Positions 2,015-25,586 of a stretch of 64,000 nt of DNA are shown here, piece by piece. The position numbers were made by a program, and so were the translations under genes. Below the pieces are notes generated by a model. The model saw only the letters and a program-made list of their open reading frames with translations. It searched no databases and was not told the DNA's origin. This stretch comes from Amaricoccus macauensis (GTDB taxonomy: Bacteria > Pseudomonadota > Alphaproteobacteria > Rhodobacterales > Rhodobacteraceae): positions 310,001 to 374,000 of the forward strand of contig NZ_JACHFM010000003.1 in the NCBI RefSeq assembly GCF_014201905.1, in the 5' to 3' direction. The first letter of the stretch is position 1, and the number at the start of each line of letters is the position of its first letter.

Positions 2015-2641
2015 GCACGGATAAATCACTGATTTAATTATCTTTTACGATATAGATTTAGAACATGGGTGCGACAAGAAGATGCGGAAACCCACGGTGG
2101 CTGGCATCGATCGACAAGCCGCTCACCGGCCTCGAGCCCGACGAACGTCAGGCCGTTGCTGTGCGGCGCTACCGAACCGGAGCTTCACGCCCGTCAGGTC
2201 GTTTCGTAGGAGCCATCAGGCCGTATCGGCGGGCAAGATAGTCCATCGCGAGAGAACATGGTCGCCATTGCGTCCTCGAGGGGATGGGCAGACATTCGCT
2301 CGACGCCCCCTTTGAGCATCTCCTGCAGCGCAGCGGCATCTTCGGTCGTGTCGCCCATCGGCCAGAGCGCCGACCCCGGTCTCAGTGGGTCATCTCAGGC
2401 TGGAGTGCGCCGGCTCGGGCGCGGCCGGTGCGAGTTGCTGGCTGGTCCCGGCGGAGACCTGGTCACCGGCGTCGAAAAACACGCAAAGCGGGACATGCCG
2501 CTCGCCGGAGCGGCAACCCATCCGCTCGCTGCGAAAGTGACGCTCTGCAACCAGGTCACTGCGCTGCCGAAATTTTCAACACCGTTGACGGATGTATCGA
2601 CCTGCCGCAGTTTGTTCGGTAGCAGAACTAATAGGCCGGAA
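2015..2641. other. A+T-rich tract and upstream region of the ROK gene
   Basis: About 2021-2075 is markedly A+T-rich (for example TGATTTAATTATC), standing out in a high-GC window. The rest holds one short minus-strand frame (2194-2358, listed separately) and the presumed promoter of the ROK gene. No integrase or other complete gene is visible. Confidence 0.45.
2194..2358 (-). CDS. Short hypothetical protein or C-terminal gene remnant
   Basis: A 54-residue minus-strand frame from an ATG at 2358 reads MGDTTEDAAALQEMLKGGV and continues into an acidic/hydrophobic helix-like pattern, ending GSYETT. Composition and codon choice look like real protein rather than a shadow frame, but there is no clear ribosome-binding site and no family is recognised. 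It could be the tail of a gene destroyed when the island formed, since the frame upstream is closed by a stop only about a dozen codons before the ATG. Confidence 0.3.
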   Translation of the reverse strand: MGDTTEDAAALQEMLKGGVERMSAHPLEDAMATMFSRDGLSCPPIRPDGSYETT

Positions 2642-5112: not shown

Positions 5113-5130
5113 CAACAGGGAGACAGCACG

Positions 5131-6183
5131 ATGCGACGGAACCTCCTCGGATGCGCCCTTGCGGCGCTGATGCTCGCCGGACCAGCCTGGCCGCAGACGG
5201 TCGGTCCGGGCGGCGAGAGCGCCACACCTTCCTCGGCAATCACCCTCTCCGACGCCGACCTTGCAGCCCTGAAGGACAAGGGGCACAAGGCGGCACTGCT
5301 CTGGCACACCTCGTCAGACTTCGTGAATGCAGTCACCTCCGGCGCCACCGATGAATTTGCCCGGGCCGACATCCCCGTCGTCGTCACAACCGACGCCGGA
5401 TTCGACGCCGCCAAGCAGCGCTCTGACATCGAAACCGCCCTCGCCGCCGGCCCCGACGTGGTGCTTGCACTGCCGCTCGACCCGGTGACCTCCGCCGAGG
5501 CGTTCCGCGAGGCCGCTGGCGCAGGTGTGAAGCTCGTGTTCCTTTCGAACGTACCAGCCGACTACAAGCAGGGCACCGACTATGTCGCGGTCGTCACCGA
5601 CGATCTCTTCCAGATGGGCAAGCAGGCCGCCGACGTGCTGGCCGAGGCGCTCGGAAAGAAAGGCAAGATCGGCTGGATTTTCCACGACGCGACCTACTAC
5701 GTGACGAACCAGCGCGACAACGCCTTCAAGACGACGATCGAGCAGGACTATCCCGACATGCAGATCGCTGCCGAGGCGGGGATCGCCGATCCCGCGCGGG
5801 CTGAAGAGATCGCCAGTGCGATGCTGCTCAAGAACCCCGACCTCGACGGCATCTATGTGACCTGGGCCGAGCCCGCCGACGGTGTTCTCGCGGCCCTCCG
5901 GGCCGCCGGCAACACCCACACGAAAGTGGTGACGCTGGATCTCTCCGAGCCGGTTGCCCTCGACATGATGAAGGGCGGCAACGTCGTCGGACTCGTCGCC
6001 GACGAAGCCTACGAACTCGGCCGTGCGATGGCCGCAACCGGGATGAAGGCGCTCCTCGGCGAACCGAGCCCACCCTTCATCGTCGCGCCGGCCCTGGCGG
6101 TGACCAGGAAGAACGTCGCCGATGGCTGGCAGAAGTCGCTGCACCGCGATGCTCCGCAGTCAATCCTCGACGCCGCGAAATGA
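5131..6183 (+). CDS. Sugar-type ABC substrate-binding protein, copy 1
   Basis: A 350-residue periplasmic receptor of the ribose/galactose-binding family (Peripla_BP_4). It starts with a signal peptide (RRNLLGCALAALMLAGPAWPQ). The core contains the typical strand-loop pattern, including an ALPLDPVTS strand, DDLFQMGKQAADVL and the PDLDGIYVTWAEPADGVLAAL region. It would deliver a ligand to the RbsC-like permease encoded downstream. It is a close paralog of the next gene, by eye roughly 60 percent identical, most strongly in the C-terminal two thirds. An AGGGAGA ribosome-binding sequence precedes the ATG. Confidence 0.85.
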   Translation: MRRNLLGCALAALMLAGPAWPQTVGPGGESATPSSAITLSDADLAALKDKGHKAALLWHTSSDFVNAVTSGATDEFARADIPVVVTTDAGFDAAKQRSDIETALAAGPDVVLALPLDPVTSAEAFREAAGAGVKLVFLSNVPADYKQGTDYVAVVTDDLFQMGKQAADVLAEALGKKGKIGWIFHDATYYVTNQRDNAFKTTIEQDYPDMQIAAEAGIADPARAEEIASAMLLKNPDLDGIYVTWAEPADGVLAALRAAGNTHTKVVTLDLSEPVALDMMKGGNVVGLVADEAYELGRAMAATGMKALLGEPSPPFIVAPALAVTRKNVADGWQKSLHRDAPQSILDAAK

Positions 6184-6194
6184 CGGAGGCCAAG

Positions 6195-7250
6195 ATGCGC
6201 ACCCTTGTCGCCCTGCTGACCGCTTCCATCCTCGCCGCGCCAGCGCTCGCGGTCGAGGGCATCACCACCGGCCCGAACGGCGAGACGGCCACGCCTGCCG
6301 CCGATCTCATCCTCTCGCCGGACGAAGTGGCGACGATCCGGCAGGGCCACCACACCGCCGCGCTCGCATGGCACGAGATGAGCGAGTACACCCGCGCCGT
6401 CGATCGCGGCGCGCGCGACGCGTTCGCCGATCTCGGGATCGAGGTGGTAGCGCAGACCGACGCTGGCTTCGATGCCGCCCGGCAGAAGGCCGACGTCGAG
6501 ACGGTGCTCGCAAAGCACCCGTCGATCATCCTGTCGCTCCCGGTCGATCCGGCGACGGCGGCACCGGTCTTCCAGCCGGCGGTCGATGCCGGTGTGAAGC
6601 TCGCGTTCGTCGACAACTCGCCGGCGGGATTTGTGCACGGGCGGGACTACGCTGCCGTCGTCTCGGACGACCTCTTCCAGATGGGCAAGAAGGCTGCCGA
6701 CGCCATGGCGGCCGTGCTCGGCGGCAAGGGCAAGCTCGGCTACATCTATCACGATGCCGACTTCTACGTGACGAACCAGCGTGACGGTGCCTTCAAGGCG
6801 ACGATCGAAGCCGACTTTCCCGACATGGAGATCGTCGCGGAGCAGGGAATGGCCGATCCGGCGCGGAGCGAGGAGATCGCGCAGGCGCTCCTCACCCAGA
6901 ACCCCGATCTCGACGGCATCTACGTCACCTGGGCCGAGCCCGCGCTCAGCGTCCTCGCGGCGCTGAAAGCCGCCGGCAATTCGCACACGAAGATCGTGAC
7001 CCTCGATCTCAACGAACCCGCCGCGCTCGACATGGCGACCGGCGGAAACTTCGCGGCGATTGTCGCGGACGAAGCGTACGACATTGGCCAAACCGCCGCC
7101 CGCGCCTCGGCCGCCGCGCTGCTCGGCAAGGCCGCGCCCCCCTTTCTCGTCGTCGACTCGCTCGCGGTAACCCGGGACAACATCGCCGAGGGCTGGCAAC
7201 GCTCGCTTCATACCGATGCGCCCGTGAGCGTCCTCGAGGCTGCGAAGTAG
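6195..7250 (+). CDS. Sugar-type ABC substrate-binding protein, copy 2
   Basis: A 351-residue paralog of the preceding gene with its own signal peptide (RTLVALLTASILAAPALA). The ATG at 6195 was chosen because a GGAGG ribosome-binding site lies at 6185-6189; an in-frame ATG at 6180 overlaps the previous stop and would add five residues. It keeps the same YVTNQRD, NPDLDGIYVTWAEP and LAVTRDNIAEGWQ segments as copy 1, while the N-terminal ligand-facing half differs more. Two receptors for one permease suggest related ligands or a recent duplication that is diverging. The permease gene follows after two bases. Confidence 0.85.
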   Translation: MRTLVALLTASILAAPALAVEGITTGPNGETATPAADLILSPDEVATIRQGHHTAALAWHEMSEYTRAVDRGARDAFADLGIEVVAQTDAGFDAARQKADVETVLAKHPSIILSLPVDPATAAPVFQPAVDAGVKLAFVDNSPAGFVHGRDYAAVVSDDLFQMGKKAADAMAAVLGGKGKLGYIYHDADFYVTNQRDGAFKATIEADFPDMEIVAEQGMADPARSEEIAQALLTQNPDLDGIYVTWAEPALSVLAALKAAGNSHTKIVTLDLNEPAALDMATGGNFAAIVADEAYDIGQTAARASAAALLGKAAPPFLVVDSLAVTRDNIAEGWQRSLHTDAPVSVLEAAK

Positions 7251-7252
7251 CA

Positions 7253-8221
7253 ATGTCGGGGACCGTTCAGGACACCCGCCGGAACCCCGCGCGGCGTATC
7301 GACTGGCAGCAGCACGTGGTCTATCTCGGCTTTCTCGCGATCTTCGTGTTCTTCGCGGTGGTGCTGCGCGACACCGGCTTCCTGACGGTCCGCAACCTCT
7401 CGAACATCGTGCTGCAGACGGCGCCGGTCACCATCATGGCGATCGGCCTCGTGTTTGTCCTGTCGGCGGGAGAGATCGATCTCTCGGTCGGCTCCACCGT
7501 CGCGGTCTCGGCCCTCTCGGCCGCGGTCGCCCTCAACGGCTGGGGGCTGGTTCCCGGGGTGCTTGCGGGACTTGGCGCGGGACTTCTGATCGGTGCCTTC
7601 AACGGTGCGCTCGTGGCCTGGTTGCGCCTGCCCTCCTTCCTCGTCACGCTCGCGACCATGGGGCTCTTCGCCGGCGTCGCGCGGTCCTTGACCGATCTGC
7701 GCTCGATCCCGGTGACGAACGGCGCCTTTACCGGCTTCTTCGGCTCCGGGACGCTCTTCGGCATTCCCTCGCTCGTGCTTTGGACGGTCGCAGCCGTGGC
7801 GTTCGGGCATCTCGCCTTCCGCGAGACCCGCTTCGGCGCCCACGTTCTCGCCACAGGCGACAATCCGAGGGCGGCGCTGGTGTCAGGTATCCGGGTGCCG
7901 CGTGTCCGCCTGGCCGTGCTGACGCTGAGCGGAGGGCTCGCCGGGCTCGCCGGGCTCCTCTACGCCGGTCGGCTGCAAGCTGCGAAGTACACGCTCGGCG
8001 AGACCGACCTCATGACGGTGATCGCCGCGACCATCGTCGGCGGGACCCTTCTGAATGGCGGGAAGGGTTCGATCGTCGGAGCCCTCGTCGGCTCGCTCAT
8101 GATGGGCATGCTCAACAACGGGCTGATCCTGATGGGGCTGTCGGTCTCCGACCAGATGATCGTGCGCGGCTTCATCATCCTCGTCGCGGTGGCGTTGTCG
8201 CTCCGCGAGAAGGCAAGCTGA
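7253..8221 (+). CDS. Sugar-type ABC transporter permease (RbsC-like)
   Basis: A 322-residue inner-membrane permease of the BPD_transp_2/AraH family. It has about eight to ten hydrophobic segments and the conserved GEIDLSVGS motif near residues 78-86, characteristic of ribose-type permeases, plus the C-terminal GGTLLNGGKGSIVGALVG segment. It should form a homodimeric channel with the ATPase encoded at 9420. It starts two bases after the second binding protein. The partner ATPase is separated from it by the YhfX-like gene, which is an unusual gene order for this transporter family. Confidence 0.88.
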   Translation: MSGTVQDTRRNPARRIDWQQHVVYLGFLAIFVFFAVVLRDTGFLTVRNLSNIVLQTAPVTIMAIGLVFVLSAGEIDLSVGSTVAVSALSAAVALNGWGLVPGVLAGLGAGLLIGAFNGALVAWLRLPSFLVTLATMGLFAGVARSLTDLRSIPVTNGAFTGFFGSGTLFGIPSLVLWTVAAVAFGHLAFRETRFGAHVLATGDNPRAALVSGIRVPRVRLAVLTLSGGLAGLAGLLYAGRLQAAKYTLGETDLMTVIAATIVGGTLLNGGKGSIVGALVGSLMMGMLNNGLILMGLSVSDQMIVRGFIILVAVALSLREKAS

Positions 8222-8232
8222 GGAGAGAACCA

Positions 8233-9432
8233 ATGTTTCTCGAAGTCCTCCGCCGGCGCAATCCGCGCTTCGTCGAGGCCGCGATCGCGCTGCACCGCGA
8301 AGGCCGGATCCCGGCCAATGCCTACGTGCTCGACCTCGACACCGTCGAGGCGAACGCGCGCGGCCTGAAGGCCGAGGCGGACCGCCACGGCCTGCGCGTC
8401 TTCGCGATGACGAAGCAGGTTGGCCGCTCGAGCGGCTTCTGCCGGGCCGTGCAGCGCGCCGGCATCGATCGCTCGGTCGCGGTCGACATGGCATGCGCCC
8501 GCGCCACGCATCGTGCGGGCCTCAGGGTCGGCCACCTCGGCCATCTCGCGCAAGTGCCGCGCGCCGAGGCCAAGGCCGCGGCTGCATCGATCCGGCCCGA
8601 CTACTGGACCGTCTTCAACGACGAGAAGGCCGGCGAGGCCGCCGCCGCCGCCGCCGACGCGGGCTATGTCCAGCAGCTCCTCGCGCGCATCCAGGCCGGG
8701 GGCGACACGTTCTATCGCGGCCACGAGGGAGGCTTCGAGGCCGCCGAGATCACGGCCGTCGCCGATCGACTCGACGCCCTCACTGGCGGTCACTTCGCCG
8801 GGATCACCACCTTTCCTGCGCTGCTCTTCGACCCGGAAAGCCGCGCGGTCCGCCCGACGCCGAACCTCGCGACGCTTGAGCGCGCCGCCGAGGCGCTGGC
8901 AAGGTCCGGTCGGACCGGCATCGAGGTCAATGCGCCCGGCACCACCTCGTCGGTCGTCGTCGCCGCGCTCGCCGAAGCGGGCGCCACCCAGATCGAGCCT
9001 GGCAACGGCCTGCACGGGACCACGGCGCTCCACGTCTTCGAGGACCTGCCGGAGCTGCCAGCGATCCTCTATCTCACCGAGGTCTCGCATCTCTCTGGCC
9101 GGCACGCCTACTGCTTCGGTGGCGGCTTCTACATCGATCCGATTTTCCCGCCCTATGACGTGAAGGCGATCGTCACCGATACGCCGACTACGGCCGAGGC
9201 CGCACTCCGCGGCGTCGAGGTGCCCCCTCCCTCCGCGATCGATTACTACGCTATGATCGACGCGGGCGGCGCCCGTCCGCCGCGTGTCGGCGACACCGCG
9301 ATCTTCGGCTTCCGCGGCCAGGCCTTCGTCACCCGCGCCTACGTCGTCGGCGTCTCGGGCATCTCGTCCGGCGAGCCGGTCGTCGAGTCGATCGAGAACG
9401 GCTTTGGCGAGCCGGAGACATGGCCCGTATGA
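8233..9432 (+). CDS. YhfX-like PLP-dependent enzyme (alanine racemase N-terminal fold)
   Basis: A 399-residue fold-type III PLP enzyme. The probable PLP-binding lysine is Lys61 in FAMTKQVG, and a TIM-barrel-like alternation follows with GITTFPALLFD and INAPGTTSS-like phosphate-binding loops (here VNAPGTTSS). It resembles E. coli YhfX, whose reaction is not settled; an amino acid racemase, aldolase or lyase activity is inferred from the fold. AGGAGAG at 8221 is a good ribosome-binding site for the ATG at 8233. It sits between permease and ATPase genes of one transporter, which suggests that it acts on the imported ligand. Its end overlaps the ATPase start by 13 bases. Confidence 0.75.
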   Translation: MFLEVLRRRNPRFVEAAIALHREGRIPANAYVLDLDTVEANARGLKAEADRHGLRVFAMTKQVGRSSGFCRAVQRAGIDRSVAVDMACARATHRAGLRVGHLGHLAQVPRAEAKAAAASIRPDYWTVFNDEKAGEAAAAAADAGYVQQLLARIQAGGDTFYRGHEGGFEAAEITAVADRLDALTGGHFAGITTFPALLFDPESRAVRPTPNLATLERAAEALARSGRTGIEVNAPGTTSSVVVAALAEAGATQIEPGNGLHGTTALHVFEDLPELPAILYLTEVSHLSGRHAYCFGGGFYIDPIFPPYDVKAIVTDTPTTAEAALRGVEVPPPSAIDYYAMIDAGGARPPRVGDTAIFGFRGQAFVTRAYVVGVSGISSGEPVVESIENGFGEPETWPV

Positions 9433-10175
9433 CGGCCCCGGTTCTCGCGCTCCGTGACATCCGCAAGACCTTCGGGGGCGTCGTCGCTGTCGAAGACTTC
9501 TCCCTCGATATCCACCCGGGCGAGATCGTGGCTCTCGTCGGCGACAACGGCGCCGGCAAGTCGACGCTCATCAAGATCATCTCCGGGGTCCACCCGCCGA
9601 CTTCAGGCGCGCTCACGATCGACGGCGCCGATGTCACCATGTCGAGCGCGACCATGGCGCGGGCCCACGGCATCGAGGTCGTCTATCAGGACCTCGCGCT
9701 GGCCGACCGGCAGAGCGTCTACATGAATCTTTTCCTCGGCCGCGAGCGCGTTCGCAACCGGCTCGGCCTGCTTGACCGGCGCGCGATGATTGCCGAGACG
9801 GCCCGTCTGGTCGAGGAACTCGACGTCCGGATCCCATCGCCGCATGCAATCATCCGCGATCTCTCCGGTGGCCAGCGCCAGGGCGTCGCGATCGCCCGCG
9901 CGACGCATTGGGCGAGAAAGCTCGTACTCCTCGACGAGCCGACCGCCGCCCTCGGGGTCGCCGAAACCGCCCGCGTAGAGGAGATCATCCTCGGGCTGAA
10001 GGCCCGGCGGATCGGCGTCCTGATGATCAGCCACAGCCTCGACCAGGTCTTTCGGCTCGCGGACCGGATATGCGTCCTCCGCCGCGGCCGCCAGATCGGG
10101 GTCCGCCGCACGGCCGAGACCGACAAGAACGAGATCGTCGCCATGATCACCGGCGTCGCGTCGGGCGTGGAGTAA
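9420..10175 (+). CDS. Sugar-type ABC transporter ATP-binding protein
   Basis: A 251-residue single-domain ABC ATPase. Visible motifs are Walker A GDNGAGKST, the Q-loop in VVYQDLAL, the signature LSGGQRQ, Walker B LVLLDEPTAALG and the switch histidine in ISHSLD. It should energise the RbsC-like permease. Most ribose-type ATPases (RbsA) carry two fused ABC domains of about 500 residues, so this half-size form would work as a homodimer. The start overlaps the YhfX-like stop; a second in-frame ATG lies at 9429. It is the last gene of the operon. Confidence 0.87.
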   Translation: MARMTAPVLALRDIRKTFGGVVAVEDFSLDIHPGEIVALVGDNGAGKSTLIKIISGVHPPTSGALTIDGADVTMSSATMARAHGIEVVYQDLALADRQSVYMNLFLGRERVRNRLGLLDRRAMIAETARLVEELDVRIPSPHAIIRDLSGGQRQGVAIARATHWARKLVLLDEPTAALGVAETARVEEIILGLKARRIGVLMISHSLDQVFRLADRICVLRRGRQIGVRRTAETDKNEIVAMITGVASGVE

Positions 10176-10815: not shown

Positions 10816-11307
10816 TCACTGGGCGGTGTAGCCGCCGTCGATGACGAGTTCGGAGCCGGTCATGAATTTCGACTCGTCCGAGGCCAGGAACAGGATGCCG
10901 TTGGCGATGTCGGAAGGCTCGCCGACGTGGCCGATGGGGTGCTTGGCGTCGAGCGCGGCCCTGACGGCCTGCTTGCCGCCAAGCGACTCGGCGAAGTTCT
11001 CGACCACCGGTGTCCAGATATAGCCCGGATGCACCGAGTTCACCCGGATGTCGTAGCCCTGCGCGCCGCAGTGCAGGGCGGCGGACTTCGTCATGATCCG
11101 CACCCCGCCCTTGCTGGCGTTGTAGGCCGCGAGGTTCGGATCGCCGATCAGCCCCTCGATCGAGGAGAGGTTGATGATCGACCCCTTGCCGTCCTTCATC
11201 GCCAGGATGCCGTGCTTGGTGCCGAGAAATACCGCGTCGAGGTTGACCGCCATCAGCCAGCGCCATTGCTCGAGGGTCGTCTCCTCGATCGAGGCCGCCA
11301 GGGTCAT
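10816..11307 (-). pseudogene. SDR oxidoreductase, C-terminal two thirds (broken, inverted relative to its N-terminal part)
   Basis: This 163-residue frame begins at MTLAASIEETTLEQWRWLM, which is internal to a short-chain dehydrogenase/reductase, just after the usual NNAG motif. It keeps the catalytic serine (NLSSIEG), the YNASK active-site motif and the C-terminal ...GSELVIDGGYTAQ tail of the classical family. The Rossmann nucleotide-binding part is missing. A matching SDR N-terminus lies head-to-head on the other strand, starting two bases away at 11309. The two together would make a nearly complete 3-hydroxyacyl- or alcohol-type SDR lacking about 30 central residues. As it stands it cannot bind NAD(P) and is most likely non-functional. 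Confidence 0.75.
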
Positions 11308-11308
11308 A

Positions 11309-11497
11309 TGGGACGGGTTTCAGGCAAGGTCGCGATCGTCACCGGGGGCGCGAAGGGCATCGGCCGCGAGGCGGCGCTGACGCTCGCGCGCGAGGGCGCG
11401 AGCGTAGTCGTCACCGACATGGACACGGCCGCTGGCGAGGCTGTAGCGGCCGGGATCGTCGCGGCGGGCGGCAAGGGCGCGTTCCTGCAGCACTGTT
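11309..11497 (+). pseudogene. SDR oxidoreductase, N-terminal Rossmann part (broken)
   Basis: From the ATG at 11309 the frame reads SGKVAIVTGGAKGIGREAAL and on to VVVTDMDTAAGEAVAAGIV, the TGxxxGIG cofactor-binding motif and second beta strand of a classical SDR. Homology ends at about residue 62, after FLQH, and the frame continues as unrelated Arg-rich sequence. The continuation of the protein is on the opposite strand at 10816-11307. This is best read as one ancestral gene broken by an inversion with loss of roughly 100 bases. Confidence 0.75.
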
Positions 11498-11576: not shown

Positions 11577-12467
11577 TCAGAACACCTTGACCAGGCGGAG
11601 CTGGACGATCGGCTGCTGCTTGAAGCCGCCTTCGACGTTGAGATCGGCACCGAGCATGCCCTGGATCTGGACCGTCGGCGAAATCATGGTGTTGGCGAAG
11701 AGGCGGACCTGGTCGTAGCGGACCTTCTGCCCCGAAGCGCTGCCGTCGAAATCGAGCTTGCCGCCAGTGGCCCCGGCATAGCCGATCGACAGGTTGGTCG
11801 TCGGCTCGGGCTGATAGCGGAGATAGGCCTGGAACGAGTACACGGGATCGCGTGAGACCTGGACGCCCTGCTACCGGTGGTCGAGCGCGAATGCCGCGTC
11901 GATCCCCGCATCGAGGAAGAGCTTCGGCCCGAGCCCCTGCACGAGGCCGATCTGCGGCGTGAAGGTGATCGTGCCGCTGCCGAGGCTCACCTTGCCGAAG
12001 TCATAGGCGCCGGTCGGAAGAGTGACGTAGAACGTCCCGCCGATCGTCGTGCCGTAGTAGGGATCGGCGACGACCGGCCAGTAGCCGGCGGCGACCGTCA
12101 CGTCGGCGATGCCGTCATCCACCGGAAGATCCGTGCCGCCGATCTTCGCCGAGTTGATCCTGCCGAACGGCGCGATCACCTGGAACTCCGCCGCACCGCC
12201 GGCGAGCGGGGTGTAGTGGACGAAGCGCGCGATGCCGACCACGGTCCCGAGCTTCGAGTCCGGGACACTGCCCACGCCGTCCAGTCGGAACTCGGTGCTC
12301 CGCGCCCCCTGGAGGTAGCCGGCGAAGATCGTCGTCCCCGCCGGCAGCGGCACATAGTCGCCCGGCGCGAAGTCGAAGGCCTTTGCCGGGGCGGTTGAGG
12401 CGAGGGCACCTGCGACGACAAGTGCGGCGAGTCTGTTCATGATCTGCTCCTTTGTCCTGTTCATCAT
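11577..12467 (-). pseudogene. Outer-membrane channel protein (phenol-degradation MetA-like) with in-frame stop
   Basis: Two collinear parts in one frame, 12467-11874 and 11870-11577, are separated by a single TAG codon at 11873-11871. Together they make about 295 residues: a signal peptide (NRLAALVVAGALASTAPAKA), then beta-strand-rich sequence with FAPGDYVPLPAGTTIFAGY and a terminal aromatic residue (LRLVKVF), as in outer-membrane channels of the 'transporter'/Phenol_MetA_deg family. Such proteins accompany degradation of hydrophobic compounds and probably help uptake. The TAG is followed by CAG, so a CAG-to-TAG change is the simplest cause. It lies next to the ketone module and would fit that pathway if intact. 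Confidence 0.7.
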
Positions 12468-12819
12468 GGGGTGGGCGAGGCTGGTGCGGGATGTCGCATC
12501 TGCGGGATCCCTCCGACGCGCCCATGCCTCGCAACTGGCCGAGAAAGCTTCCTGATCCCGGGTCTATTCTAGGGTTGCGCCCCGTGAGCGGTCTTGAATG
12601 ATCCGCCGGCAGTGTTTGAACGGACCGGCGGCCGGCTGCGCGCATGGCCAGGTCCGGAGCGAAAACCGCGGCTGCTGTCCGGGGGTGAGGCGCGCAGGCG
12701 TGGGGCGATCGTCGCCGCATCGGGCAAGGCCGCACCCTCCGGCGCGGCGATGTCCGGGCCGCTCGATACGGTCGGGGGCGAAGCGGGATGCCGCGGGCGC
12801 CGGGCGCGGCGCTCCCGGG
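12468..12819. other. Intergenic stretch upstream of the channel gene
   Basis: Contains the presumed promoter and leader of the minus-strand channel gene; a ribosome-binding-like AGGAG lies just upstream of its start. Otherwise no gene or striking repeat is visible. Confidence 0.45.
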
Positions 12820-13752
12820 TCAGAAGGCGACGTTCGCCGCGCCCTTGGTGCCGAGCATCGCGCGGGCCTCGTCGGGGCTGGCGGTCTCGATCGACAGCTC
12901 GGAGAGGATGCGGCGGATCTTCGTCACCTGCTCGGCGCTCGTCCGGGCGAGCTCGCCCTTCGAGAGGAAGAGCCTGTCCTCGAGCCCGACGCGCACGTTG
13001 CCGCCAAGAATCGCGCTCATCGTGACGAAGGGCATCTGATGGCGGCCGGCGGCGAGAACCGAAAGCAGGTAGTCGTCGCCAAACAGCCGGTCGGCGGTCG
13101 CCTTCATGTGCATGAGGTTCTCGGGCTCGGGGCCGATGCCGCCAAGGATGCCGAAGATCGCCTGAACGAAGAACGGCGGCTCGACGAGGCCGCGGTCGAT
13201 GCAATGCGCCAGATTGTAGAGATGGCCCACGTCGTAGCACTCGAACTCGAAGCGCGTGCCGACCGCGCCGAGGCGGCGCATCGCGGCCTCGATCTGCACG
13301 AAGGTGTTGGACATGACGAAGCCGCGCGTCGATTCGAGATAGGGGCGTTCCCAGTCGTGCCTGAAGGAGGGCACGCGGGCGGCAGCACCGGAGATGTTGA
13401 AGTTGAACGAGCCCATGCTCATCGAGGCGAGCTCGGGCCGCGCCCAGAGCGCCGCAGCGAGCCGTTCATCAATTCTCATGCCAAGGCCGCCGCCAGTGGT
13501 GATGTTGACGATGGCATCACTGGCCTCGCGGATGCGCGGCAGGAAGTCGGCGAAGATCTCCGACGAAGGCGAGGGGCGGCCGGTCTCGGGGTCGCGCGCG
13601 TGCAGGTGGACGACGGCGGCGCCCGCCTCGGCCGCGCCGATCGCCTGCGCGGCGATCTTGTCCGGTGTCACCGGCAGGTAGGGCGACATGCTGGGCGTAT
13701 GGATCGAGCCGGTGATGGCGCAGCTCACGATGACCTTGCCGTTCTTCTTCAT
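12820..13752 (-). CDS. BKACE-family beta-keto acid cleavage enzyme
   Basis: A 310-residue (alpha/beta)8-barrel protein of the DUF849/BKACE family. These zinc enzymes convert a beta-keto acid plus acetyl-CoA to acetoacetate plus an acyl-CoA; the founding member is Kce of lysine fermentation. The zinc ligands are visible as HLHARD (His49, His51) and Glu258, with Arg254 and Asp259 at the same spacing as the catalytic Arg226/Glu230/Asp231 of Kce (RVGLED). The ITTGGG loop for the carboxylate is present at about 84-89. It is divergent from acxA, sharing a 286-bp upstream region, so it probably acts on the product of that carboxylase. The family assignment is firm; the substrate is inferred. Confidence 0.85.
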   Translation of the reverse strand: MKKNGKVIVSCAITGSIHTPSMSPYLPVTPDKIAAQAIGAAEAGAAVVHLHARDPETGRPSPSSEIFADFLPRIREASDAIVNITTGGGLGMRIDERLAAALWARPELASMSMGSFNFNISGAAARVPSFRHDWERPYLESTRGFVMSNTFVQIEAAMRRLGAVGTRFEFECYDVGHLYNLAHCIDRGLVEPPFFVQAIFGILGGIGPEPENLMHMKATADRLFGDDYLLSVLAAGRHQMPFVTMSAILGGNVRVGLEDRLFLSKGELARTSAEQVTKIRRILSELSIETASPDEARAMLGTKGAANVAF

Positions 13753-14038
13753 GGCTCCCTCCCTGCGGCAGTGTTCCGGCCGCCACGGACAGCACGATGA
13801 TAGGGCCGCCCCGGGCCGGTGCTCTTGAACGCTGCTGCGGCGGCTTTTGAACGATCCCTCACTGACGGGCCCGCCACCCGCGCAACGTTCGCGCCTGCAG
13901 CAACGGCAAATGAGCAGGAATGTTCCATGATCGGCCCCTGCCCGTTCAATAACGGTGCCTCTCGACGGGCGTAGGGTTCTGACATCGGGTTGCGGCAGCT
14001 CCGCCCGACCCCCGGCAGGATTTCACGGAGGGAGATGC
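13753..14038. promoter_or_regulatory. Shared divergent control region of BKACE and acxABC genes
   Basis: This 286-bp region separates two divergent starts and must hold both promoters. It contains two similar segments with TTGAACG (about 13826 and 13855) spaced roughly 28 bases, a possible regulator site. No convincing sigma-54 element was found. The AraC gene at the end of the carboxylase operon is the obvious candidate regulator. Confidence 0.45.
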
Positions 14039-16186
14039 GTGGAACGATCCTACATCATGTCCATGGACGCCGGCGGCACCATGACGGACACCTTCTTCGT
14101 CGATGGTGACGGCCGCTTCGTCGTCGGCAAGGCACAGACCACCCCGCAGGACGAGTCGCAGGGGTTCGCGCAATCCTGTGTCGATGCGCTGCAGCAGTGG
14201 GGCACGACGCCGGAGGCGGTGTTCCCGAGCGTGCAGACCGGGATCTACTCGGGCACGTCGATGCTCAACCGGCTGCTGGAGCGCAAGGGCCAGAGGCTCG
14301 GGGTCATCGTCAGTGCCGGGCTCGAGGACTATTTCCAGCTCGAGCGCGGCATCCAGACCTACCTCGGCTATTCCTATCAGGATCGGCTCAAGGTCGTCAC
14401 TCACCGCCACAACGTGCCGCTGGTGCCGCGCTCGCGCGTCTACGGCGTGCGCGGCCGGGTCGACGTCTTCGGGGACGAGGCGATCCCGCTCTACGAGGAA
14501 GAGGCACGCGCGGCAGTGCGCAGGCTCATCGCCGAGGAGGTGAAGGGCATCGTCGTCAACCTGCTGTTCTCCTACGCCAATTCCACGCACGAGGACCGAG
14601 TGCGCGCGATCTGCGCCGAGGAGTGCGGCGCGGCCGGCGTCACGATCCCGGTCTACCTGTCCTCGGACCTCTATCCGGTGATGCAGGACTTCGCCCGGCT
14701 GAACACGGTGACGGTCGAGGCCTATGCGGCGGAGCCGAGCCGCGGGCAGTTCCGCAAGATCGCCGGGAGGACGCGCGGCTATGGCGCCGACTTCGAGCTC
14801 CGGGTCATGGCCTCGCACGGCGGGACCATCTCGACCGAAGCCAAGGAACTGGCGCGCACGCTCATCTCCGGGCCGATCGGCGGCATGGTCGGCGCGCGCT
14901 ACGTGGCCGAGAAGCTCGGCGTGAAGAACGTGGTCTGCTCGGACATCGGCGGCACGTCGTTCGACCTCGGGCTCATCACCAACGGCGGCTTCACCGTGAA
15001 GTCGCAGCCGGACATGGCGCGCTTCATGCTGAAGCTGCCGCTCGTCGACATCGACTCGGTCGGTGCCGGCACCGGCTCCTATGTCCGGGTCAATCCGGTC
15101 TCGAACCGCATCGAGATCGGCCCTGATTCCACCGGCTCGCGGGTCGGCGTCTGCAACCCACAGGGCGGCGTCGAGACGGTGACGCTCTCGGACTGCAACG
15201 TGCTGCTCGGCTACCTGAATCCGAACAACTTCCTCGGCGGCGAGGTGATCCTCGATCCCGAGAAGTCGCTTGCCGCCATCAAGGCGCAGATCGCAGAGCC
15301 GCTGGGCCTCGACCCCTACGACGCCGCCGAGGGCGTGCTCAGCCTCTTCGAGGACCATTTGCGCAACGAGGTCTATGCGCGGGTCTTCGGCAAGGGGTAC
15401 GCCCCCGAGGACTATCACCTCTATTCCTACGGCGGCGGCGGGCCGCTGCACGTGGCGGGCTATGCCAAGGGGCTGCGGTTCGCCAAGGTGGTGGTCCCGG
15501 CCTGGGCCGCGGGCTTCTCGGCCTTCGGCTGCGCCTGCGCGGACTTCGAGTACCGGATGGACCGGACCGTCAACGTCGCGGTCCAGAGCCCGGAGCTGAA
15601 CGCCGCGGGCTTCAAGGCGGGCTTCGACGGCTACGCCAGGGCGGTCAACGAGGCCTGGGCGACGCTCGAGCAGCGCGTCGAGGACGAGTTCAGCAAGTCC
15701 GGCGTCGCCCGGGACCGGGTCGAGTTCCGGCACTTCGGCTGCGTGCAGTACGTCGGCCAGCTCAACGACGTCGAGGTGCAGGTGCCCTTCGAGCGGGTGA
15801 AGACCGAAGCGGACGTGCGCGAGATCATCACGCGCTTCGAGGAAGCCTACGCCAAGCTCTACTCGCGCGCTGCCACCTCGCCGGAGCTCGGCTATCTCAC
15901 CACGACCGCGGTCATCACCGGCGTCGTGCCGGTCGAGAAGCCGCGCCTGCCCGCCGAGCCTCTGGCCGGTCCCGAGCCGTCGCCCGACGCGCTGAAGGGC
16001 ACGCGCAAGGTCTATCGCGAGGGCAAGTGGCACGACGCGAAGATCTACCACATGGAGCGGCTCGAGCCCGGCAACCGGCTGTCCGCGATCTCGGTCATCG
16101 AATCCCCCTCGACCACGCTGGTCATTCCCCTGGGGTTCGAGGCCAACCTGGACGAGCACCGGCTCTTCCACCTGACCGAAGTCTGA
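14039..16186 (+). CDS. acxA: Acetone/ketone carboxylase beta subunit (hydantoinase A-like)
   Basis: A 715-residue protein of the HyuA/acetone carboxylase beta family, close in length to known AcxA. It should phosphorylate ketone and bicarbonate with ATP for carboxylation to a beta-keto acid. Landmarks are the phosphate-binding MDAGGTMTDTFF near the N-terminus, and the actin-like SDIGGTSFDLGL and SYGGGGPLH motifs. The GTG at 14039 was chosen because GGAGGGAG lies seven bases upstream; an ATG at 14057 is possible but shortens the protein before the first motif. It is followed by the alpha and gamma subunit genes. Acetone is the family's usual substrate, but the BKACE neighbour raises the possibility of another methyl ketone. 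Confidence 0.88.
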   Translation: MERSYIMSMDAGGTMTDTFFVDGDGRFVVGKAQTTPQDESQGFAQSCVDALQQWGTTPEAVFPSVQTGIYSGTSMLNRLLERKGQRLGVIVSAGLEDYFQLERGIQTYLGYSYQDRLKVVTHRHNVPLVPRSRVYGVRGRVDVFGDEAIPLYEEEARAAVRRLIAEEVKGIVVNLLFSYANSTHEDRVRAICAEECGAAGVTIPVYLSSDLYPVMQDFARLNTVTVEAYAAEPSRGQFRKIAGRTRGYGADFELRVMASHGGTISTEAKELARTLISGPIGGMVGARYVAEKLGVKNVVCSDIGGTSFDLGLITNGGFTVKSQPDMARFMLKLPLVDIDSVGAGTGSYVRVNPVSNRIEIGPDSTGSRVGVCNPQGGVETVTLSDCNVLLGYLNPNNFLGGEVILDPEKSLAAIKAQIAEPLGLDPYDAAEGVLSLFEDHLRNEVYARVFGKGYAPEDYHLYSYGGGGPLHVAGYAKGLRFAKVVVPAWAAGFSAFGCACADFEYRMDRTVNVAVQSPELNAAGFKAGFDGYARAVNEAWATLEQRVEDEFSKSGVARDRVEFRHFGCVQYVGQLNDVEVQVPFERVKTEADVREIITRFEEAYAKLYSRAATSPELGYLTTTAVITGVVPVEKPRLPAEPLAGPEPSPDALKGTRKVYREGKWHDAKIYHMERLEPGNRLSAISVIESPSTTLVIPLGFEANLDEHRLFHLTEV

Positions 16187-16190
16187 GGCG

Positions 16191-18412
16191 ATGGAGGACA
16201 TGCCCATGGACATGCTTGTCGACGCGCCGGTGATGCGGGCGCCCCTCGGCTGGAACGGCCGGACACTGAAGCAAATGCTCGAGGACTCCGAGCGCCTCGT
16301 GGCCGAGACCGGCCGCTATAACGGCCTCGATTACCTGAAGCTCCAGACCGAGCAGCCGATCCTCTACGAGAAGATATTCTCGCGGCTGCGCGGCGGCCTG
16401 GTCAACGCCCGTTCGACGGCGCTGAACATCCCGCCTCGCCGATCGTCAAGGAGATCGGTGAACTCTCCTTCGCGATCTACACTCCCGAGGGCGACTCGAT
16501 CGCGCTTTCGACCGGGATCATCGTTCACGTCCACACCATGTCGGACGCGATCAAGTTCATGATCCGCAACAACTACGAGGCGACACCGGGCATCAAGCAC
16601 GGCGACGTCTTCTGCAACAACAACTCGATGATCGGCGACGTGCACACCGCCGACGTGCACACGATCATCCCGATCATCGTTGGTGACGAGCTGGTCGGCT
16701 GGGCCGCCGGCGTCACCCACGAGATCGACGTGGGCGGCATCGAGCCCGGCTCGATGTGCTATGGCCACGCCGACCGCTACGGCGACGGGCTCCTCGTCTC
16801 GTCGGAGCGCGTGGGCGAGAATGACGAGTTCTACGCGCACTATCTCCAGCGCTGCCGCGAGGGCGTCCGGGCGGAAATGTACTGGGTGCTCGACGAGAAG
16901 ACCCGGCTCGCCGGTTGCCAGATGGTGCGCGAGCAGGTGATGCGCACCGTCGAGGAGGTCGGGCTCGACACCTTCAAGGCGTTCATGCGCGAGGCGATCG
17001 AGGAAGGCCGGCGCAGCTTCCTCGCCCGGTCCCGGCAGATGCTGGTGCCCGGCGTCTACGAGGCGCCGAGCTTCACCGACCTGCCGTGGTCCGAGGACGC
17101 CAACGTCCATCGGCTCGCGCGCAAGGACATGATGATGCACGCGCCGTTGCAGATGACCGTCGGAGGCGACGGCCGGCTCGACCTGTCATTCGAGGGAGCG
17201 AACAAGTGGGACTTCCACTCGTTCAACTGCGCCCCCTCCCCGATGCAGGGGGCGATGTGGGTGCAGCTCACCCAGACGCTCTGGAACTCGGACAAGATCA
17301 ATGACGGGGCCTATTTCGCCACCAGCCTGAAGCTGCCTTACGGCTCCTGGTGCAACCCGGATTACGAGAAGGTCTCGACCACGCTCACCTGGTTCTTCCT
17401 GATCCCCGGCTTCTCCGGGATGATCCGGGCGATCGGGCGCAGCTACTTCGCCCGCGGCTATGTGGAGGACATCTCGGCGAGCTACTGCACCTCGTGGAAC
17501 CTGATGCAGGGGGGCGGGATCAACCACTACGGCGTGCCCTCGGCCTTCACCAACTTCGAGGTCTCCTGCGGCGGCACCGGCGCGCTTTACGTCAAGGACG
17601 GCGAGACATCGTGCGCGGCCATGTGGAACCCCGAAGGCGACATGGGCGAGGTCGAGACCTGGGAGGCGCTCGAGCCGCTGATCTACCTCGGCCGCGGCAT
17701 GAAGCCCTCGACCGGCGGCCCGGGCAAGCAGCGCGGCGGCACCGGATCCGAGGCGCTGCGGCTGCTGTTCAAGACCGACTCGCAGACCATCTTCAACGGC
17801 GGCGAGGGCCACGTCTTCTCGAGTTACGGCATCTTCGGCGGCTATCCGGGCAATTCCGGCTATCGCCACAACATGCACGACACCGACCTCAAGGCCCGAT
17901 TCGACAAGCGCGAGCCCTATCCGGTGCTCGACGGCGACCCGGAAGCGTCGCAGATCTCCGCACTCTGCACGGCCGCCCGCGAAGACTTCGATATGAAGGC
18001 GATCCAGGGGCCGCAGGAGTACGACCTCTACCTGTCGATGAACCGCGGCGGCCCCGGCCTCGGCGACCCGCTGGAGCGCGAGCCGGAGGCGGTGGCGCGC
18101 GACGTGAACGAGGGCCACGTGCTCGAGCGTTTCGCCCGCTCGCTCTATAGCGTGGAACTGCTCAAGGGGACGGGCGAGCTCTTCACGGCCGACCTCCCGG
18201 CCACCGAGGCGCTGCGGGCGGAGATGCGCAAGTCGCGCCTCGCCCGGTCGAAGCCCGCGGCGGAATTCTTCGCCGAGGAGAAGCAGCGGGTCGAGAGCCG
18301 CGCGGTCATCAGGCCGGTGGCCGACATGTACCGCTCATCCATGAAGCTGTCGCCGGAGTGGGCGGCGAAGTACCGCGGCTTCTGGGCACTGCCGGACGAC
18401 TGGACCTACTGA
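16191..18412 (+). pseudogene. acxB: Acetone/ketone carboxylase alpha subunit (hydantoinase B-like), one-base frameshift
   Basis: The HyuB-type subunit is encoded in two frames. The first, 16191 to about 16436, reads from APLGWNGRTLKQMLEDSE to STALNIP. The second, from about 16437 to 18412, continues ASPIVKEIGELSFAIYTPEG and runs in frame to the stop. Restoring one G after the CCG codon near 16437 joins them perfectly into roughly 740 residues, near the family's usual size of about 770. The remainder is intact, including HGDVFCNNNSMIGDVHTAD and GGTGSEALRL. Translation starting at the ATG at 16538 would lack about 115 N-terminal residues. A sequencing error, a real mutation or programmed frameshifting are the options; the first two are more likely. 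Confidence 0.82.
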
Positions 18413-18424
18413 GGAGGACAAGCG

Positions 18425-18916
18425 ATGACGAGCTACACCGTCGAGCATCTCGCGCAGCTCAAGGACGGCCGGCTGCCGGCCAACGCCGTCCACGACATGC
18501 AGAGCAAGTACAAGGACGCTGACCGCTTCTTCAAGATACTGGAGGTCTGGCAGGCCTCGGTCGAGTGGGACGACCCGATCCTGCTGCCGCTCGCCGAGCA
18601 CCTCTTCGTGGTGCAGAAGCCGGACGGCCGCCGGGTGATCAAGTCGAAGTGGGGCCACGAGTACGGCGAGGCGCACGAGAACTGGAAGCTGCACGCCCGG
18701 GTCTTCGTCCGCGACACCGAAGAGCTGATGGACGAGATCTATCCGCGCCGCATGGCCTCGCACCCGGACTGGATGGTGATCCGCGAATACTACGACCCGG
18801 TGAGCGGCACGCTGCTCGAAGTCGAGGCGGTTCCCCCGGGCTATCCGCCGGTCCACGACTTCAAGCCGGACATCGACACCTTCTACCGCGATTGGCTCGG
18901 CAAGCCGTTCGCGTGA
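18425..18916 (+). CDS. acxC: Acetone/ketone carboxylase gamma subunit
   Basis: A 163-residue protein matching the small gamma subunit of acetone carboxylase (about 165-170 residues). It contains the segments WGHEYGEAHENWKLHARVFV and RRMASHPDWMVIREYYDPVSG, characteristic of that subunit. Its presence argues for an acetone carboxylase-type alpha2beta2gamma2 complex rather than a hydantoinase or acetophenone carboxylase. GAGGAGG lies just upstream of the ATG, 12 bases after the alpha-subunit stop. A strong hairpin follows the stop, so it ends the operon. Confidence 0.87.
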   Translation: MTSYTVEHLAQLKDGRLPANAVHDMQSKYKDADRFFKILEVWQASVEWDDPILLPLAEHLFVVQKPDGRRVIKSKWGHEYGEAHENWKLHARVFVRDTEELMDEIYPRRMASHPDWMVIREYYDPVSGTLLEVEAVPPGYPPVHDFKPDIDTFYRDWLGKPFA

Positions 18917-19059: not shown

Positions 19060-19977
19060 ATGACGAAGCTCATCAAGCCGGAGGAACTCCCGCGCTGGGT
19101 CCCCGGTGATGTGACGATCGACAGCGGCCCGCTCGACTGGAACGGGATCAGCCTTCGTGGCTATCGCTACGCCCCGTCCGACGTCGAGGTGCCGGCGATG
19201 CAGACCTACATGATCGTGGTCTACCGCGACGGCGCCACCCCGATGACCCGACGCTGCGGCGCACCCTGGCGCTCGGAGCACGTGGCACCGGTCAGCGTGT
19301 CGCTCCTCACCCACGCCGCGCCGTCGCACTGGCGCTGGAGCGAGGAGATCGCGGTCAGCCACCTCTACCTGTCGCCCCGCGCGGTGGCGGCGGTGGCGGA
19401 GGACGTCTTTGGCCGCGACGTCGACAGAGTCGAGCTTTTCGACGTGCTGAAGGTCGAGGATCCCGTCCTCGCGGCCATCGCCACGCAGCTCGAGGCGGAG
19501 GCGATCCAGGGCGGGCTCGGCGGCACGCTCTACACCGATGCGCTGCGCAACCAGCTCGGCATCCATATCCTGCGCAACTACGCTGACGTGCACTTCAAGG
19601 CCCCCTTCGTCGCTGGCGGCTTTACCGTCCGCCAGCGCAAGGCGGTGCGCGACTTCATCGAGGCGAACCTCGACCACGCCTTCACGCTCGCCGAGCTTGC
19701 AGAGGTGGCGAAACTTGGCGTCTTCCACTTCGGCTGCAAGTTCCGCACCGAGTTCGGCTGCACCCCGCACGCCTACCTGCTGCACCGCCGGATCGAGACC
19801 GCCAAGCGCCAGCTTACCGCGTCGCTCCTCCCGCTGAAGGCGATCGCCGCCAACGCGGGCTTCGCCGACCAGAGCCACATGACACGCCTGTTCCGCCGCT
19901 TCCTCGGCGTGACACCGGCCGAGTTCCGCCGCGCGACGAGCACGCGCCCCGGGGATCCGGTCAAAGACACGATCTGA
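19060..19977 (+). CDS. AraC-family transcriptional regulator
   Basis: A 305-residue regulator with an N-terminal sensing domain (about 1-180) and a C-terminal double helix-turn-helix (about 205-295). The second contains TAKRQLTASLLPLKAIAANA followed by GFADQSHMTRLFRRFLGVTPAEFRR, the classic AraC signature. It probably activates the adjacent acxABC and BKACE genes in response to a ketone or related alcohol. Known acetone carboxylase operons in Xanthobacter use a sigma-54 activator instead, so this would be a different control scheme. The ATG at 19060 is the first start with domain homology following it. It is separated from acxC by a terminator and so has its own promoter. Confidence 0.85.
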   Translation: MTKLIKPEELPRWVPGDVTIDSGPLDWNGISLRGYRYAPSDVEVPAMQTYMIVVYRDGATPMTRRCGAPWRSEHVAPVSVSLLTHAAPSHWRWSEEIAVSHLYLSPRAVAAVAEDVFGRDVDRVELFDVLKVEDPVLAAIATQLEAEAIQGGLGGTLYTDALRNQLGIHILRNYADVHFKAPFVAGGFTVRQRKAVRDFIEANLDHAFTLAELAEVAKLGVFHFGCKFRTEFGCTPHAYLLHRRIETAKRQLTASLLPLKAIAANAGFADQSHMTRLFRRFLGVTPAEFRRATSTRPGDPVKDTI

Positions 19978-20062: not shown

Positions 20063-20500
20063 ATGCAGCGACTTCAGGGCAAGGTGGCAATCATCACCGG
20101 CGGCGCGGGCGGCATCGGCGAGGCGACGGCTGCGCGCTTCGTCAGCGAGGGGACGAAGGTGCTGCTGGTGGACATCGACGCCGGCGCGCTCAGCCAGGTC
20201 GCCGGGCGCCTCGACGCCGGCAGCGTCGCGACCTGCGTCGCCGACGTCTCCTCGGCCGAGGACGTGCAGCGTTACGTGGCAGAAGCGATTGACCGCTTCG
20301 GGCGGCTTCACACGATCTTCAGCAACGTCGGAACCGAAGGGGCGATCGCGCCGATCACCGACTATCCGCTCGAGGCCTTCGACAAGGTGATGGCCGCCAA
20401 CGTCCGCGGCGTCCGGCGTCAAGGCGACCGCCGGAGAGCAGGGATTGTCGCGACGAAGAATTCGGCAAGAACCGTCGCGAAATCCACGCTCCACATCTGA
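20063..20500 (+). pseudogene. SDR oxidoreductase, truncated after the NAD-binding half
   Basis: The frame starts well, with an AGGAGAG ribosome-binding site and QGKVAIITGGAGGIGEATAA, the TGxxxGIG cofactor motif, and proceeds through CVADVSSAEDVQRYV and NVGTEGAIAPITDYP to MAANVRGV at about residue 118. After that the sequence becomes unrelated and basic, and stops at 20500. The catalytic Ser/Tyr/Lys half is missing, so it should be inactive. Neighbours suggest it once belonged to the ketone module, perhaps as an alcohol or 3-hydroxybutyrate dehydrogenase. The stretch 20501-20780 after it holds no recognisable gene. Confidence 0.75.
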
Positions 20501-24757: not shown

Positions 24758-25093
24758 ATGGGAGTCGTACTGAAAGAAGAAAGCACCATCACTGCCAAGG
24801 GGCAAACCACCGTGCCGAAATCCGTTCGGCAGGCGCTGGGCGTTGACTATGGCGGGCGAATTTCCTTTTTCGTTGATGAACAGCGCCGCGTCCATGTCCG
24901 GAAGGCCGAAGTTGAAGAAACCGCCGATCCCGTGATCGACAGTTTTCTCGAATTCCTCGCCAGGGACATGGCGAAACACCCCGAGACATCTGTCCTCCCG
25001 TTCCCGCAATCCCTGCTTGACCGGGCAGCTGCCCTGACGGCAGGAATGACGGTCGACCTCGATGCCGAGATCGAGGGAGACGTCTCGATCTGA
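24758..25093 (+). CDS. prlF: PrlF-type antitoxin (AbrB/MazE fold)
   Basis: A 111-residue protein with an N-terminal swapped-hairpin DNA-binding domain (STITAKGQTTVPKSVRQALG), the hallmark of AbrB/SpoVT-type antitoxins, and a C-terminal acidic segment likely to wrap the toxin. It should neutralise the YhaV toxin encoded directly downstream and repress the shared promoter, whose inverted repeat lies about 30 bases upstream. The ATG at 24758 is preceded by GGAGG. The pair is coupled, with toxin start two bases after the antitoxin stop. Both proteins match their E. coli counterparts in length. Confidence 0.87.
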   Translation: MGVVLKEESTITAKGQTTVPKSVRQALGVDYGGRISFFVDEQRRVHVRKAEVEETADPVIDSFLEFLARDMAKHPETSVLPFPQSLLDRAAALTAGMTVDLDAEIEGDVSI

Positions 25094-25094
25094 T

Positions 25095-25586
25095 ATGCTG
25101 ACGATCAATGGTTGGGCCGTCCTCGCACATCCTCTTTTTCTCGATCAATGGGAAACACTGATCGAGGCTGTCGAGGCGCTCAAGGCGAAGAGGCCGAAGG
25201 ATTATCAGAAAGCCGCCAACGCCAAGCTGCTCGCAGTCTTGGTCCAACTCGTCACCGTCACGGTCCCATCGGACCCAACGGCCGCGATCTATCGCCAAGG
25301 CTCCAGCCTTGGCGACGATCGCAAGCACTGGTTCCGCGCCAAGTTCGGCAACGGCCGATTCCGGCTTTTCTTTCGCTACAGCAGTGCCAGCAAGGTCATC
25401 ATCTTCGCCTGGGTGAACGACGAGAACAGCTTGCGGACCTACGGTTCCAAGACGGATGCCTACAAGGTTTTCAAGGGAATGCTGGACGGCGGCAATCCGC
25501 CCGATGATTGGAGCGCGTTGCATGAGCAGGCATCCTATCCCGAAGCCGTTGCGCGGCTGAAAAAGACCTCTCTCTCGAAACCGTGA
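25095..25586 (+). CDS. yhaV: YhaV-type ribonuclease toxin
   Basis: A 163-residue RelE-superfamily toxin similar to E. coli YhaV (154 residues), which cleaves mRNA. The segments INGWAVLAHPLFLDQWETL, IYRQGSSLGDDRKHWFRAKF, RFRLFFRYS and VIIFAWVNDENSLRTYGSKTDAY match the family throughout, with the conserved basic and aromatic residues of the active site (Arg/His in DRKHWFRAKFG, Arg in RFRLFFR). No lesion is visible, so the pair appears functional, in contrast to the decayed genes that follow. In this setting it may help retain the island. Confidence 0.9.
   Translation: MLTINGWAVLAHPLFLDQWETLIEAVEALKAKRPKDYQKAANAKLLAVLVQLVTVTVPSDPTAAIYRQGSSLGDDRKHWFRAKFGNGRFRLFFRYSSASKVIIFAWVNDENSLRTYGSKTDAYKVFKGMLDGGNPPDDWSALHEQASYPEAVARLKKTSLSKP

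Follow-up and report, generated by a model that had tools for sequence, protein, structure and literature searches.

The BKACE–acxABC locus and its integrity

In a 64,000-nucleotide stretch of the Amaricoccus macauensis genome (contig NZ_JACHFM010000003.1, positions 310,001 to 374,000; hereafter the window), the gene of a beta-keto acid cleavage enzyme (BKACE) lies back to back with three genes of a ketone carboxylase resembling AcxABC. The BKACE gene is intact (12820..13752, minus strand; 310 amino acids (aa); Pfam BKACE and NCBIfam NF053538). Divergent from it, on the plus strand, run the acxA-like gene of the beta-type, nucleotide-binding subunit (14039..16186; intact, assigned with phmmer, start placed by eye), the acxB-like gene of the alpha-type, metal subunit (16191..18412) and the acxC-like gene of the gamma-type subunit (18425..18916; Pfam Acetone_carb_G, 148.5 bits), whose product is devoid of cysteine. 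The start codons of BKACE (ATG 13752) and acxA (GTG 14039) are both preceded by strong, near-identical Shine-Dalgarno sequences (GGAGGGAG, by eye). An earlier note on this DNA (12820..18916) had described the same divergent arrangement of BKACE and acxABC. This layout was recovered and all three subunit genes are present, but acxB is not one open frame (16430-16433). Overall, we regard the locus as a real, probably co-regulated gene set that is decaying.

Downstream of acxC, an intact AraC-family regulator gene (19060..19977, plus; 305 aa; Pfam HTH_18), probably the regulator of the cluster, is followed by a truncated short-chain dehydrogenase/reductase (SDR) gene, SDR2 (20063..20500, plus), which covers only positions 1-112 of the 195 in the Pfam adh_short profile and whose homologues align only up to about residue 117. 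On the BKACE side lies a porin-like gene (Phenol_MetA_deg, PF13557; 11577..12440, minus, start at 12440 by eye), interrupted by an in-frame stop at 11871-11873, past which the same reading frame resumes. Beyond it, a second dehydrogenase gene, SDR1, is split into a C-terminal part of 163 aa (10816..11307, minus; Pfam adh_short_C2 positions 86-236) and an N-terminal part inverted relative to the remainder (11308..11497, plus, end at 11497 placed by eye). A tblastn search with the SDR of another locus (L142) placed its residues 1-43 at 11308-11436 (plus) and residues 85-253 at 11331-10828 (minus), so that the pieces stand in opposite orientation with roughly 30 residues absent between them. Phase variation as the source of this inversion was rejected, given the loss of these residues and because the inverted repeats found nearby are short and fail to flank the inverted segment.

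The frame change in acxB was located with two single-frame homologues: 16227-16430 corresponds to them in one frame and 16433-18406 in a different one, leaving a single residue in between. Damage in this assembly extends to four of the cluster's genes (acxB, the porin-like gene, SDR1 and SDR2), and we consider that the cluster is probably decaying and the pathway not working in this genome. The genome holds only one gamma subunit gene, and none of its other HyuA-type genes exceeds 33% identity to acxA; hence the strain probably cannot carboxylate ketones with AcxABC, unless the frame change in acxB is an assembly error. It is improbable that the lesions as a whole are such errors and that the cluster is intact and working. 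Both acxB and the porin-like gene have small lesions and otherwise read well, and BKACE, acxA, acxC and araC are intact; but the inversion with loss in SDR1 and the truncation of SDR2 are not single-base errors. The median length of open reading frames (ORFs) points the same way, being 174 aa at 10.2-26 kb of the window against 328 aa at 26-64 kb and 302 aa elsewhere in the genome (16 other stretches pooled, 312 kb). Short ORFs are nevertheless not unique to the cluster, since the medians of the sampled stretches range from 168 to 387 aa and one of 17 (L175, 168 aa) is as low as the cluster. Scans for sigma-70 promoters and terminators gave results at chance level, and plasmids yielded no nucleotide relative with 80% coverage of the stretch.

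The carboxylase and BKACE families

The three carboxylase subunits match those of Xanthobacter acetone carboxylase (phmmer; beta 820 bits against 5m45_B, alpha 614, gamma 166), and the order acxA-acxB-acxC with HyuA, HyuB and Acetone_carb_G domains is that of acetone carboxylase. In comparison with AcxABC of Xanthobacter autotrophicus (PDB 5M45/5SVB), the manganese ligands of the alpha subunit, His150, Asp153 and His175, correspond to H36, D39 and H61 in the second frame of acxB, and a further ligand of the AMP-bound form, Glu89, maps between the frame change and ATG 16538. The window system differs from that of X. autotrophicus in its broken acxB and in its gamma subunit, which has none of the four zinc cysteines (Cys74, 76, 124 and 127) described for that species (PMC5543143, in excerpt). 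Among 26 compared gamma subunits, 15 keep all four zinc cysteines, 10 keep one and one (L134) keeps none; the cysteines are missing in the window, L134, L230 and L231, for the latter two within the stretch shown. The four cysteines are not a strict requirement of Acx, since other gamma subunits have lost them. Loss of the zinc site is common, the ten loci with a single zinc cysteine being L108, L109 and L114-L121.

The alpha subunit of the window is 42-45% identical to the Xanthobacter type, 38% to the Sinorhizobium type and 50-51% to L134, L230 and L231, and its beta subunit is about 52% identical to the Xanthobacter type (proxies L110-L112). In the alpha-subunit tree, the window and L134 stand apart from both known types, with weak support (80/66) and two long branches. 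The carboxylase appears to represent an uncharacterised lineage with a gamma subunit lacking zinc cysteines, and such an enzyme is predicted to carboxylate a ketone. Acetophenone carboxylase, ApcABCDE of Aromatoleum aromaticum (PDB 5L9W), belongs to the same hydantoinase/ketone carboxylase superfamily and likewise turns a methyl ketone into a beta-keto acid by carboxylation, but it has four core genes plus apcE beside a benzoylacetate-CoA ligase (PMC5214803, in excerpt), against three genes in the window, and the window carboxylase scores far under the Apc model cut-offs. At L134 (2491-12752), the window lineage is represented by an Acx-like carboxylase in tandem with an acetophenone-carboxylase-like set on one contig, all scores of the latter being under the Apc model cut-offs. 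Two genomes of the same class as the Advenella genome (G1368 and G1275) each carry three different Acx-like carboxylases (L230, L231, L232, L233, L234 and L239), which suggests several ketone substrates.

The BKACE scores 333 bits with Pfam BKACE (PF05853; cut-off 24.8) and 497.6 bits with NF053538 (cut-off 430). His49, His51, Arg254, Glu258 and Asp259 were found at the positions named in the earlier note, and Glu171 is also kept, so that the zinc ligands and the catalytic Glu171, Arg254 and Asp259 are all present. The enzyme is predicted to cleave a beta-keto acid with acetyl-CoA. It aligns end to end with BKACE15 of Paracoccus denitrificans (PDB 8RIO/8RIP/9HNF), a member of the same BKACE branch, with the zinc ligands, Arg254 and Glu171 kept. 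According to the excerpted text of PMC11961710, Glu171 is the proposed catalytic base of BKACE15, its substrates are 3-oxopentanoate, 3-oxohexanoate, 5-hydroxy-3-oxohexanoate and 3,5-dioxohexanoate, and its physiological role is called unknown; benzoylacetate, and hence a route from acetophenone, is not in the substrate list as excerpted. BKACE15 differs in its gene context, reported in the same excerpts to suggest aromatic degradation. By analogy, these four acids would arise from butanone, 2-pentanone, 4-hydroxy-2-pentanone and acetylacetone, respectively. No BKACE more than 60% identical to that of the window was found in 10 other genomes of the genus. A sixth BKACE-family match in the same genome (C2:1330846-1331598) has an in-frame TGA and is probably a broken copy.

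The identity of a lysine-type Kce was rejected. The Kce model NF052387 gives 213 bits against a cut-off of 382, and Ile17 of the window enzyme aligns, through two alignments, with Glu14 of Kce, the residue that in lysine fermentation holds the 5-amino group. The triacetate acetoacetate-lyase of Clostridium scatologenes (CsTAL) is another BKACE-family enzyme, converting a beta-keto acid and acetyl-CoA to an acyl-CoA and acetoacetate (PMC10470551, in excerpt); its keto acid derives from phloroglucinol, not from ketone carboxylation. Should acetylacetone be the ketone, the carboxylase would form 3,5-dioxohexanoate (triacetate), which the BKACE would split into acetoacetyl-CoA and acetoacetate, as in Clostridium. 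The name of NF053538 refers to this triacetate acetoacetate-lyase reaction, the window enzyme exceeds its cut-off, and the reaction itself was shown for CsTAL (PMC10470551, in excerpt). As a substrate call, the name was set aside: the label is broad and is also passed by three BKACEs from different contexts, namely the second BKACE of the genome (540.9), that of L035 (499.7), which lies in an aromatic-type cluster, and that of L060 (504.8). Moreover, Ile17 is at the aligned place of the substrate-pocket residue Trp16 of CsTAL (whose sequence itself was outside the alignment) and of Glu14 in Kce, and a narrow literature search on acetylacetone carboxylation found nothing, leaving little likelihood for acetylacetone as the substrate.

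A common repeat and the question of recurrence

The divergent BKACE/acxA promoter and the porin promoter carry a common direct repeat, YTTGAAYG-N14-YTTGAACG, with a 22-bp pitch. Site 1 (CTTGAATG-N14-TTTGAACG; 12593..12622, plus) lies 5' of the porin-like gene and site 2 (CTTGAACG-N14-TTTGAACG; 13824..13853, plus) between BKACE and acxA; both are putative operators. At up to 2 mismatches these are the only two matches in the 64 kb, both with 0 mismatches, against an expectation of 0.13, and none of 100 shuffles reached two. Samples of 328 kb from the same genome and about 3.0 Mb from other loci revealed no pair with this pitch apart from the window copies. A pitch of 22 bp is close to the usual spacing of AraC-family sites. 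The AraC of the window is 49% identical to one encoded directly upstream of acx in L238, where TTGAAC-N16-TTGAGC, with the same 22-bp pitch, stands at the head of the AraC gene. A motif-blind repeat search at L238 yielded two families of short repeats, among them GAGTTGAACCA-N11-GAGTTGAGCCA with 22-bp pitch, and TTGARC-N16-TTGARC had 0 occurrences in 3.3 Mb of other loci. Judging from these sequences, the regulator may bind the repeats, and the gene set is probably co-regulated and may form one regulon. At all five annotated acx plasmid loci the regulator is of the sigma-54 type, in contrast to the AraC of the window. The idea that the 22-bp repeat marks this AraC subfamily in general was rejected, since five AraC-relative loci lack it.

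The neighbouring genes provide further connections. The nearest relatives of SDR1 (57-60% identity) directly follow acxC in three genomes (G440, G459 and G701), a link between acx and the BKACE side of the cluster. Relatives of the AraC in plasmids are 41-45% identical, and two of the five loci adjoin esterase, SDR and flavin oxidoreductase genes, the last with a Baeyer-Villiger enzyme as best family match, well under the model cut-off; the remaining three loci have different neighbours. The two former loci hint that this AraC family may respond to ketones. Together, the locus-specific repeat and the flanking genes with relatives in ketone clusters suggest that BKACE and acx act in one ketone pathway.

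Several observations weigh against this interpretation. The repeat pattern was built after both sites had been seen, and a query with site 2 alone, allowing up to 3 mismatches, gave two hits in 7 of 100 shuffles as well. No single strict hexamer pair fits the two window sites and L238, and the repeat is absent from the five AraC-relative plasmid loci. The L238 repeat reaches as far as the first ATG listed for the AraC ORF, an odd position for an operator unless the true start lies further in; the alignment with the window AraC begins 11 residues past the listed ATG. In L113 and L144, which carry the same acx type, the search gave no SDR1 relative next to acx, and the relatives of the porin (41-42% identity), directly beside BKACE in L035 and L197, connect BKACE with clusters resembling aromatic meta-cleavage loci. 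Both loci (L035 4803-11722; L197 3189-9679) combine BKACE with extradiol-dioxygenase-like (VOC), flavin monooxygenase, flavin reductase, porin and aldolase genes, and BKACE may there catalyse the last step of an aromatic pathway.

Recurrence of the gene pair in other genomes, whose absence the earlier note had named as refuting its proposal, was not observed in this sample. No acx was found in any of 80 BKACE loci and no BKACE in any of 48 acx loci (26 + 22), within available flanks. The former are the best 80 of at least 543, with acx matches counted from 60 bits up; 27 of them have less than 5 kb on at least one side and 15 have a flank under 2 kb. The acx loci, five of which have a flank under 5 kb, come from five partly overlapping draws (390, 398, 385, 340 and 367 genomes) and from six of 985 plasmid records with a match; a weak gamma match in G257, weak second matches in G024 and G115, G1662 and two fragments of G1775 were left out. 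Some loci are near-identical or overlapping, so that locus and base counts are not independent. Among the acx loci without BKACE are L230 and L231, which encode two of the three carboxylases nearest to that of the window. The remaining one, L134, breaks off a short distance 5' of acxA, at the place expected for a divergent BKACE, and its genome yielded no BKACE match above 32% identity. A gamma subunit was present in 4 of 40 searched BKACE genomes, in none of them within the available flanks of BKACE. In L037, a distant hydantoinase-like match lies about 8 kb from BKACE. L060 was rejected as a second pair of BKACE and ketone carboxylase: its divergent hydantoinase-like genes come without a gamma match, its HyuA-type gene scores best as the caprolactamase type (under cut-off), and a 302-aa ORF intervenes. 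The pairing is so far unique to the window.

The genes might be chance neighbours, an acetone-type carboxylase operon having come to lie beside a BKACE–porin pair from an aromatic ring-cleavage cluster with no common pathway. The joint occurrence of BKACE and porin near VOC and flavin monooxygenase genes in L035 and L197, the lack of any joint occurrence of acx and BKACE in the sample and the highly varied contexts of BKACE genes all speak for such an origin. Against it stand the locus-specific repeat common to the BKACE/acxA and porin promoters, and SDR1, which lies on the BKACE side and has acx-linked relatives; on balance, we find it possible but rather unlikely.

A candidate route for larger methyl ketones

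The gene identities, catalytic residues, lesions in this assembly and common repeat were seen directly; regulator binding, the substrate, the coupling of Acx to BKACE and the loss of function are inferred. We hypothesize that BKACE and acxABC are one AraC-controlled unit for a methyl ketone larger than acetone, now decaying here. We give this an almost even chance. The substrate would most likely be a C4-C5 ketone, e.g., butanone or 2-pentanone, possibly formed by an SDR from the corresponding secondary alcohol. Carboxylation of the ketone's methyl group by AcxABC would yield a beta-keto acid, which the BKACE would exchange with acetyl-CoA, releasing a shortened acyl-CoA and acetoacetate, and general CoA-transferases would activate the acetoacetate. 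With acetone itself the cycle is null, as the earlier note had correctly reasoned: acetone gives acetoacetate, and BKACE with acetyl-CoA returns the same pair. The BKACE step therefore makes sense only for larger methyl ketones. Calling the route free of CoA ligases overstated the case, since one free acid, acetoacetate, still needs activation per turn; the route would rather swap a dedicated ligase for general acetoacetate activation, and three CoA-transferase A-type genes exceed the cut-off elsewhere in the genome. The coupled ketone pathway proposed in the note thus gains from the common repeat and the ketone-cluster neighbours and loses from the missing recurrence, the four damaged genes and the need for activation.

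The families themselves, acetone and acetophenone carboxylases and BKACEs, are already known. The claim that no pathway coupling Acx to BKACE has been described agrees with the literature searched, most subscription papers being outside its scope: none was found, nor any paper joining "acetone carboxylase" with BKACE, DUF849 or "3-keto-5-aminohexanoate cleavage". In the same literature, gene-level activation of the beta-keto acid from butanone or higher methyl ketones in aerobes is little documented. As a new arrangement, a carboxylase lineage without gamma zinc cysteines would share one AraC regulon with a BKACE and move a C4-C5 keto acid straight onto CoA in return for acetoacetate, a proposal we hold with considerable doubt. 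If true, one general acetoacetate-activating enzyme would serve many ketones. An operator common to a ketone carboxylase and a BKACE would give a concrete, testable pathway and would hint at what some members of the BKACE family do physiologically. The lineage of carboxylases that lack gamma cysteines (window, L134, L230 and L231) is of interest whatever the BKACE does.

Outside the cluster, the region to its left (2258-10175) holds an apparently intact transport and catabolism set, comprising a ROK regulator, two sugar-type binding proteins, a permease, an ATPase and an alanine-racemase/YhfX-like gene. To the right, a YhaV-type toxin gene (25062-25586) stands in surroundings with 84% DNA identity to a region of a Rhizobium sp. 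Q54 plasmid whose annotation names a YhaV toxin and an AbrB-family partner. A flotillin-like gene (27007-28395) is apparently in two pieces (Band_7 at 27007-27630 and Flot at 27739-28395), and a LodA-like L-lysine epsilon-oxidase is encoded at 35773-37671.

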